DNA of 64,000 nucleotides from Ferrovibrio sp. MS7 (lineage in GTDB: Bacteria > Pseudomonadota > Alphaproteobacteria > Ferrovibrionales > Ferrovibrionaceae). Positions within the stretch are counted from its first letter, which is position 1; each line of letters starts with the position of its first letter. The position numbers and the translations under genes were made by a program. Under the pieces are notes generated by a model, which saw only the letters and a list, made by a program, of their open reading frames with translations, was not told the origin of the DNA and made no database searches. Positions 53,736 to 54,088 of this stretch are shown here, in pieces. The stretch covers positions 248,001 through 312,000 of the forward strand of contig NZ_JBBKBA010000002.1 of assembly GCF_038404985.1 (NCBI RefSeq). Reading direction: 5' to 3'.

Positions 53736-53764
53736 TTGACGCCTGCCGGCCCGGCAGGCAGAAT
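53736..53764 (+). promoter_or_regulatory. leuA promoter with palindromic spacer
   Basis: TTGACG (53736-53741) and CAGAAT (53759-53764), spacer 17 bp, form a plausible sigma-70 promoter. The spacer is a perfect inverted repeat, GCCTGCCGGCCCGGCAGGC (53741-53759), exactly between the two elements, so it may be an operator. The expected start near 53771 would place the leader ATG (53774) almost at the mRNA 5' end. Confidence 0.55.
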
Positions 53765-53773
53765 AACCCTATT

Positions 53774-53827
53774 ATGAAGCGCGACCGGCGACTTACGCAG
53801 CTGCTCCTTATCAACCCGATCCTGTAA
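53774..53827 (+). CDS. leu leader peptide (attenuator), apparently leaderless
   Basis: 17-residue ORF encoding MKRDRRLTQLLLINPIL, with five Leu and two Ile codons; a CTG-CTC-CTT run is at codons 10-12. No Shine-Dalgarno is present and the predicted transcription start is about 3 nt upstream, as known for the leaderless trpL leader of Sinorhizobium. The last codons and stop lie in the 5' arm and loop of a hairpin (53815-53838). Ribosome stalling at Leu codons when charged tRNA-Leu is low would open that hairpin and allow leuA transcription. Leader role is inferred from composition and position. Confidence 0.8.
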   Translation: MKRDRRLTQLLLINPIL

Positions 53828-53895
53828 GCAGGGTCGGGCAACAGCAGCGCACGCGTTTAAGTCCCCTTATCCTCCCCAAATTCCGGTCGCCTACC

Positions 53896-54009
53896 ATGTC
53901 CAGCCATTCGTCTACCCGCATTACCCCGGCGCATAGCCATATCCCGGCCCGCATTCTCCCGGCCCTGGCGGCGCAGCTTGGCGCGCTACGACTTAGCGGC
54001 GGCCGCTGA
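53896..54009 (+). CDS. Second putative leader ORF
   Basis: 37-codon ORF from ATG 53896 to TGA 54007-54009. Its last third contains Leu codons CTC, CTG, CTT, CTA and CTT; CTA and CTT are rare in the genes of this window. The CTA and last CTT lie immediately before and inside the 5' arm of the terminator, and the stop lies in its 3' arm. No good Shine-Dalgarno. It could be a second ribosome-sensing element or chance; not a family I recognise. Confidence 0.35.
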
Positions 54010-54016
54010 GTCTTTT
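53990..54016 (+). terminator. Attenuator terminator upstream of leuA
   Basis: GACTTAGCGGC (53990-54000) pairs with GCCGCTGAGTC (54002-54012) with one T-G wobble, directly followed by TTTTCC. In practice the innermost bases form the loop. It lies 73 nt before the leuA ATG, so it must be bypassed for expression. Confidence 0.7.
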
Positions 54017-54088
54017 CCGGGCCACTCGGCGGCCGTAATCGGGCCCCTCACCCTTATCGCTACAAATTCCGACTTTCAGGAGTGTGCC

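Follow-up and report, generated by a model that had tools for sequence, protein, structure and literature searches.

What fills the long interval between a leucine-rich leader peptide and leuA, and how might this interval take part in the control of the gene? Leader-peptide attenuation, in its textbook form, involves one leader ORF and one terminator. The leuA gene of Ferrovibrio sp. MS7, which lies in the 64,000-nucleotide stretch of DNA analysed here (hereinafter, the window), is preceded by two tiny Leu-coded reading frames, ORF1 and ORF2, rather than one (Table 1). An earlier note on the same DNA had described the spacing between leader and terminator as unusually long. The gap is real but its explanation was missed: the gap holds ORF2, and the pairing partner of ORF1 lies at the ORF2 start. 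Further upstream of the leader, on the other strand, are two genes for subunits A and B of 3-oxoacid CoA-transferase. Rfam gives no match in the window at the gathering threshold and none in positions 53700-54100 at E<=5.

On balance, and by a small measure, we favor the reading that this element is a two-step, ribosome-operated leucine-starvation relay controlling leuA. The first step, in which ribosome stalling on ORF1 would free the ORF2 start, is well supported by the comparison of related loci, and the step from ORF2 to leuA is one that we infer.

Table 1. Features of the leuA leader region (positions are those of the window).
Feature	Positions	Strand	Description	Basis
Promoter	53736-53764	+	sigma-70-type, TTGACG-17-CAGAAT	predicted start about 53771
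ORF1	53774-53827	+	(near-)leaderless Leu leader peptide MKRDRRLTQLLLINPIL, then stop	17 codons, 5 Leu; recurs in relatives
P1, 5' strand	53781-53788	+	GCGACCGG in ORF1, pairs with 53883-53890	MFE folds; p=0.030 at this locus
Inner helix, 5' strand	53790-53798	+	GACTTACGC in ORF1, pairs with GCG..TTAAGTC at 53853-53863	MFE folds
H1	53815-53838	+	10-bp hairpin 53815-53824/53829-53838, ORF1 stop codon in loop	MFE folds
Inner helix, 3' strand	53853-53863	+	GCGTTTAAGTC	MFE folds
P1, 3' strand	53883-53890	+	CCGGTCGC, 5 nt before ORF2 start codon	MFE folds; duplex statistics
ORF2	53896-54009	+	second leader, missed in the earlier note	frame open to ATG in 67/73 distinct two-leader loci
Rare-codon triplet of ORF2	53986-53994	+	CTA CGA CTT (Leu-Arg-Leu)	codon usage
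Terminator of the earlier note	53990-54016	+	GACTTAGCGG/CCGCTGAGTC + TTTT	10/10 paired; excludes H2
H2	54001-54034	+	conserved hairpin 54001-54010/54025-54034	covariation
leuA	54089-55777	+	2-isopropylmalate synthase	NCBIfam TIGR00970, 844 bits, cut-off 697

The set of compared loci

The main set consists of the regions upstream of leuA in 119 loci. Of these, 28 came from searching 61 genomes, and the other 91 from a draw across the class, which yielded a close leuA in 111 of 386 genomes. A further 27 loci from four orders were added later, and the named contigs formed a separate check set; among the named loci (L055-L130, n=76), only the 9 with two copies of the 7-mer CGACTTA entered the ORF2 frame check. 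Left out of the counts were two paralogues (L029, L030), overlapping fetches (L031-L050), the partial leuA of G340, and L051-L054, which are apparent repeats of Ferrovibrio loci already included, with the same small ORFs. L239, with one CGACTTA copy, was omitted from the ORF2 frame count. L071 is identical to L165, so that the distinct two-leader loci number 73, not 74, and some of these are close relatives of one another. Within the last 430 nt before leuA, CGACTTA occurs in 77 of the 119 loci, with at least 2 copies in 33; when in frame, it encodes Arg-Leu, mostly preceded by another Leu codon.

A predicted near-leaderless leucine leader

The 17-codon ORF with five Leu codons that had been noticed right after the predicted transcription start is present as ORF1 and recurs in relatives. 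It precedes leuA in 8 of the 9 Ferrovibrio loci (L001-L009), the exception being L004, in whose genome the leader sits before a leuA fragment (L032) instead. Across the main set, this type of Leu leader is widespread, with 63 of the 119 loci passing a simple Leu-rich test, a few of which look like chance ORFs; the tails that directly precede the stop in relatives include, for example, LLLINPIL, LRLTAPAC and LLRLTSPVL.

ORF1 begins 9 nt past a good -10 box, and its promoter is the only sigma-70-like match on either strand of 53600-54150, compared with 0.1 expected from shuffles. Choosing the nearest in-frame leader ATG places the end of a -35/-10 pair 5-10 nt upstream of it in 50 of 51 loci; with the first in-frame ATG forced, a good promoter lies at this distance in 37 of 51, all with a score of at least 8.5. 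In the same scan, the controls gave 0/35 for ORF2, for which no separate promoter was seen, 9/119 for leuA (3 with a score of at least 8.5) and 44/1020 for shuffles (7 with a score of at least 8.5). Given this placement of the promoter, compared with the controls, ORF1 is predicted to lie at, or a few nucleotides after, the 5' end of the mRNA. Within Ferrovibrio, the distance is 9 nt in seven of the eight leaders and 7 nt in one, and 9 nt translates into a predicted 5' UTR of about 3 nt. The (near-)leaderless start that the earlier note had suggested is, accordingly, the predicted arrangement across the loci (37/51 against 0/35 for ORF2 and 3/119 for leuA).

In the window, the promoter spacer is occupied by a perfect inverted repeat of 9 bp, GCCTGCCGG-C-CCGGCAGGC (53741-53759), which takes in one base each of the -35 and -10 boxes; by eye, it is not found in the same form in the other Ferrovibrio leaders. 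It is possibly an operator, or else due to chance. Separately, five loci (L143, L153, L186, L187 and L192) carry leuA leaders with a different Leu tail, either with CTA runs, e.g. LLGLLLGA, or of the form LDLGIPALS, each ending at the stop codon; judging from these predicted peptides, several leuA leader types exist in the class.

Conserved hairpins and the terminator question

The hairpin proposed over the leader stop is present as H1, and a comparable hairpin at the leader stop occurs in a 17-species family. In a classical transcription attenuator, a ribosome stalled on ORF1 would free the 3' arm of H1, which would pair with CCCGGCCCTG and so prevent formation of the GACTTAGCGG/CCGCTGAGTC terminator. 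Every piece of this scheme is present in the window, including a terminator hairpin that is paired at 10 of 10 positions and followed by TTTT. The competing partner, placed 120 nt downstream in the earlier note, does exist as a 10-bp match (CCCGGCCCTG, 53958-53967), a length reached by about 6% of shuffles, but the 7 other leaders of the genus show no such match, theirs being 6-8 bp long and reached by 41-100% of shuffles; furthermore, the partner segment does not overlap the terminator stem. The terminator hairpin itself also exists but is poorly conserved within the genus, with 10/10 pairs in the window, 8/10 in L002 and L003 and 5/10 in the other five leaders, and it falls below the threshold of the terminator prediction tool.

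The hairpin that is conserved at this place is H2, which uses the 3' arm of the TTTT hairpin and hence excludes it. In 29 loci, all 10 pairs of H2 change on both sides, with 42 such cells compared with 15.6 in shuffles (0/500 reaching this number) and at most 23 when the alignment is slid. In 20 loci chosen from these 29, nine being set aside for a different-looking hairpin, 9 of the 10 pairs change on both sides, with 33 cells compared with 11.1 when shuffled (0/500) and at most 13 when slid; the proportion of paired cells is 93.4% in the 20 loci and 83.8% in the 29. L019, which has a weak hairpin, is in neither set. Within a single family, there are 4 both-side-changed cells compared with 1.4, a number reached by 7 of 500 shuffles. 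H2 starts 12 nt after the first base of the CGA codon of ORF2, in the window as well as in the 20 aligned loci.

A U-tract (at least 5 T in 8 positions) follows the conserved H2 in just 2 of 30 loci, a count in which the script misplaced some H2 ends (e.g. in L001 and L005), and in 2 of 20 loci with the ends aligned, some of the tails being shortened. Together with the lack of an Rfam match, this argues against the classical attenuator, which we consider quite unlikely; the comparison of leaders does not support a terminator/antiterminator switch. Of the original reading as a leucine attenuator, the Leu leader peptide, its predicted near-leaderless start and the stop hairpin are supported, and the switch is not.

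A covariance model of the ORF2 tail and H2 was run on 57 genomes, 23 of which have a close leuA. Matches at E<0.01 were obtained in 9 genomes, in all 9 directly upstream of leuA, 5 of the 9 being outside the model; the other 14 of the 23 genomes with a close leuA gave no match at this threshold, which implies that the ORF2-tail/H2 module is not universal or that the model is too narrow. Four weaker matches (E 0.04-0.1) lie elsewhere, except for one in G017, which coincides with the ORF1 module of the same leader. As a separate observation by eye, most Ferrovibrio leaders retain both a GGGCC in the loop of H2 and a GGCCC downstream of this hairpin (54019-54046 in the window), a potential pseudoknot pair.

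A second leader frame

ORF2 ends inside the hairpin formerly taken for a terminator, and its Leu-Arg-Leu triplet consists of rare codons that lie just before H2: among the 31 ORFs of the window, CTA and CTT account for 1.5% and 7% of the Leu codons, respectively, and CGA for 1.6% of the Arg codons. Around the proximal CGACTTA, an ATG can be reached in the CGA-CTT frame at 61 of 65 loci, compared with 6 and 9 for the other frames (one-leader loci included). The test of two-leader loci additionally required that the ATG lie downstream of the ORF1 stop. In a first group of 39 such loci, frame 0 is open in 35, +1 in 3 and +2 in 7 (30, 3 and 5 in the nonredundant subset of 34); the nine named loci gave 9, 0 and 0, and the 26 added loci gave 24, 4 and 5. 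Summed over the 73 distinct two-leader loci, the ORF2 frame is open in 67 and the other frames in 7 and 12; an ORF2 with ATG is absent from 6 of the 74 (L017, L160, L164, L181, L236, L241), which were counted as misses. In one order, frame 0 is kept in 18 of 18 genomes despite several ATG-to-CGA lengths, from 31 to 48 codons, one other frame also reaching an ATG in 8 of the 18. The stop is variable, the frame continuing past H2 in several genomes of this order. Over 30 loci, with the most upstream ATG taken, the distance from the ORF1 stop to the ORF2 start codon (ATG2) is 69 +/- 14 nt (27-102) and ORF2 is 19-59 codons long. By eye, many ORF2 starts lack a Shine-Dalgarno sequence.

From this conservation of frame, it is well supported that ORF2 is a translated frame. 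Selection on the peptide was not seen in 11 pairs, where pN/pS is 1.27 in frame compared with 0.91 and 0.84 in the other frames. The amino acids of ORF2 are not conserved and, accordingly, it seems to be translation, not the peptide, that matters. Frameshifting by +1 at CTT-A into leuA was considered and rejected because the frame from CGACTT to leuA is not constant: the distance is 100, 101 and 102 nt in L001, L002 and L005, respectively.

Several individual features of ORF2 deserve mention. Its length seems to vary through in-frame internal repeats, with two 29-nt copies, 72% alike, at 53902-53963 in the window; in L003 the units are GFSRL-like, and in L221 a unit RLHSL is repeated. In L065, the in-frame ORF2 stop TGA overlaps the leuA ATG (ATGA), an arrangement that would couple translation directly. 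L032 (genome G003, contig C43) is a second copy of the two-ORF leader located before a leuA fragment, about 108 aa long and cut off by an unreadable codon; a complete leuA without the two-ORF leader lies about 2 kb downstream of this fragment. The duplicate leader may be a scaffolding artefact.

Pairing of the ORF1 body with the ORF2 start region

A comparative signal links the two frames through the P1 pairing. P1 was assessed between -24..+9 around the last leader codon pair of ORF1 (CGA-CTT or CTN-CTT) and -35..+6 of the ORF2 ATG, this wide window being adopted after weak results with a narrower one. In 54 nonredundant loci (of 68), pairing is stronger than in shuffles at p<=0.05 in 29 and at p<=0.1 in 37 (Fisher 4.8e-23), and with the other strand shuffled, in 35 of 54 at p<=0.05 (Fisher 1.9e-24). 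The true partners beat swapped ones in 45 of the 54 loci (Wilcoxon 9.6e-9). The signal is specific to the ORF1 body: moving the ORF1 window gives Fisher 0.048 at -12, 0.98 at +0 and 0.052 at -60, with 1e-12 retained at -40, where the window overlaps the body. Against the leuA start, the ORF1 body gives Fisher 0.68. Tested against the ORF2 start, two ORF2 windows give weak scores (Fisher 0.014 and 0.038) that do not exceed those of swapped partners. At 17 of the 54 loci, among them L003, L012 and L177, P1 has p>0.1. The narrower first window (-12..+9) gave 5 of 30 loci (Fisher 0.0012). Among the added loci, 5 of 24 reached p<=0.05, and in the nine-locus validation set 0 of 9 did (Fisher 0.92); six of these nine loci are in the 54-locus set, and two of them reach p<=0.05 with the wide window.

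Inside P1, a further helix (Table 1) has its GAC/GTC pairing kept in 17 of 17 members of another family and is not general (6/33 at p<=0.05). The AAGTC segment after H1 was also tried as a general partner for the two copies of CGACTTA, with 6/33 loci for copy 1 and 1/33 for copy 2 at p<=0.05; because so few loci are significant, it was kept solely as the inner helix of some families.

The predicted effect of a ribosome on this fold is small in size and mostly in one direction. With two ribosome-stall masks, predicted access to ATG2 rises in 35 or 40 of 54 loci and falls in 11 or 8 (mean rise 0.05-0.07); the 40 and 8 apply to a ribosome masked two codons before the last Leu codon, compared with one at the stop, and the corresponding mean changes only from 0.45 to 0.52. 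In an earlier version of the masking, the mean went from 0.41 to 0.44, access rising at 14 and falling at 8 of 35 loci. Expected pairs between ORF1 and the ORF2 start number 11.8 with a ribosome at the stop and 4.6 or 1.3 under the stall masks, a reduction that is partly a consequence of the masking itself.

From ORF2 to leuA

The read-out on leuA is less clear-cut. In a translational scheme like that of the LEU element, the Leu region of ORF2 would pair directly with the leuA start, and ORF1 would be a relic. Such duplexes reach p<=0.05 in 6 of 30 loci (L005, L006, L009, L152, L173, L210), but over all loci the pairing is weak: the best of ten windows gives Fisher 9e-5 and 0.036 against swapped partners, the whole ORF2 body gives Fisher 0.005 and swap 0.10, and the ORF2 body against -22..+3 of leuA gives Fisher 0.37. 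The pairing of the ORF2 Leu region with the leuA start was, for this weakness across loci, dropped as a general lock. The 24 loci with a single CGACTTA near leuA, which include a few close relatives of each other, behave in line with direct pairing, the leader body pairing with the leuA start at p<=0.05 in 4 (Fisher 0.0022, swap 0.0063); a fixed window at +40..+81, which overlaps the leuA start for the nearest leaders, also scores (Fisher 0.00025). Seven of these loci (L014, L018, L026, L028, L155, L220, L221) have another Leu-rich ORF further upstream. Because both the placement of the ORF1 promoter and P1 are conserved better than expected of a relic, we regard control by ORF2 alone as very unlikely. 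The single-copy loci hint at a general rule, whereby a leader body locks the next start and ORF2 would be an inserted relay.

A second possibility retains the relay upstream, as in the reading that we prefer, and differs in the read-out alone: Rho would terminate the untranslated leader, ribosomes on ORF1 and ORF2 would shield it, and leucine shortage would decide whether ORF2 is covered. The lack of a conserved intrinsic terminator and a last spacer richer in C than in G (skew -0.18 on average) are compatible with this variant, for which there is a precedent in orf34 of Salmonella speF, where Rho is combined with sequestration of a start site (PMC6386406, partial text). The skew is mild, ORF2 itself being at -0.16, and we take this variant to be unlikely.

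The proposed relay

The relay that we favor would operate in four steps. Transcription would start at, or about 3 nt before, ORF1, as suggested by the promoter placement, and with the transcript starting there, ribosomes would load directly on the 5' end. When leucine is present, the ribosome would reach the ORF1 stop inside H1, leaving the ORF1 body free to form P1, and ORF2 would be poorly translated. When charged tRNA-Leu is short, the ribosome would stall on the Leu codons of ORF1 and cover the P1 strand, and the ORF2 start would open. For these second and third steps, there is strong comparative evidence in the conserved pairing. Finally, a ribosome on ORF2, delayed by the CTA-CGA-CTT codons at the base of H2, would allow leuA expression, possibly by keeping away Rho or an inhibitory fold, or by opening the leuA start region.

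More broadly, and more tentatively, a two-stage relay of this kind might be widespread in alphaproteobacteria, a proposition that we hold to fall slightly short of probable: a leaderless Leu leader would gate initiation on ORF2 and ORF2 would gate leuA, making the response to leucine shortage sharper and AND-like with no intrinsic terminator involved. A biosynthetic gene, leuA, appears to use two serial leader ORFs, with the coding sequence of ORF1 acting as the lock on the ORF2 start. If true, the relay predicts cooperative sensing of tRNA-Leu charging, would account for how far the Leu leader lies from leuA, and draws attention to a pair of small, easily overlooked ORFs in each genome.

Comparison with known systems

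The Rfam family Leu_leader represents proteobacterial leucine leader-peptide attenuators of the leuL type. The element described here resembles these in having a Leu-codon leader near the 5' end of the leuA transcript and, presumably, a stalled ribosome as the sensor, and differs in having two leader ORFs, the first predicted to be near-leaderless, and neither a conserved terminator/antiterminator pair nor an Rfam match. As far as can be judged from the compared leaders, the element is without the terminator features of a classical leu attenuator. No relay of this design is described in the titles and abstract openings of the open-access matches listed, and subscription papers, e.g. Vitreschak et al. 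2004, may describe leaders of the ORF1 type.

In the LEU element of actinobacterial leuA, a leader peptide with a Leu run is encoded by a region that pairs with the start region of the following gene (PMC1262725, partial text). Common to the two systems, as far as this portion of the paper goes, are a Leu leader upstream of leuA and a leader body that pairs with the following start; here, in contrast, the well-supported partner is the ORF2 start, the leuA start being a weak partner in two-leader loci and a moderate one in single-copy loci near leuA. By analogy, the leuA element would work like leader-peptide attenuation, and the P1 lock like the actinobacterial LEU element (PMC1262725, partial text). 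Among alphaproteobacteria, Caulobacter has many leaderless mRNAs as well as an ilv leader attenuator (PMC4117421, partial text). In Sinorhizobium meliloti, the trpL leader peptide at the 5' end of the mRNA is a single leader ORF of a transcription attenuator (PMC10117765, partial text). On this account, trpL shares with ORF1 the location of an alphaproteobacterial leader peptide at the mRNA 5' end (predicted here), and differs in the amino acid and in having one leader ORF rather than two.

With respect to tandem leader-ORF control, the two serial frames are reflected in the frame conservation (67/73 compared with 7 and 12), and the putative action of the first ORF on the second, in the P1 pairing seen by sequence comparison (Fisher 5e-23 in 54 loci). 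Salmonella mgtCBR answers signals other than erythromycin. In its leader, two small ORFs in series are both reported to matter for control (PMC3641672, partial text), and the same is reported of the tandem leader ORFs ermBL/ermBL2 of ermB, which answers erythromycin (PMC8274638, partial text). Going by these partial accounts, the leuA element is like both in having two serial small ORFs in one leader, and unlike them in that both ORFs are Leu-coded and the architecture recurs in many alphaproteobacterial genomes.
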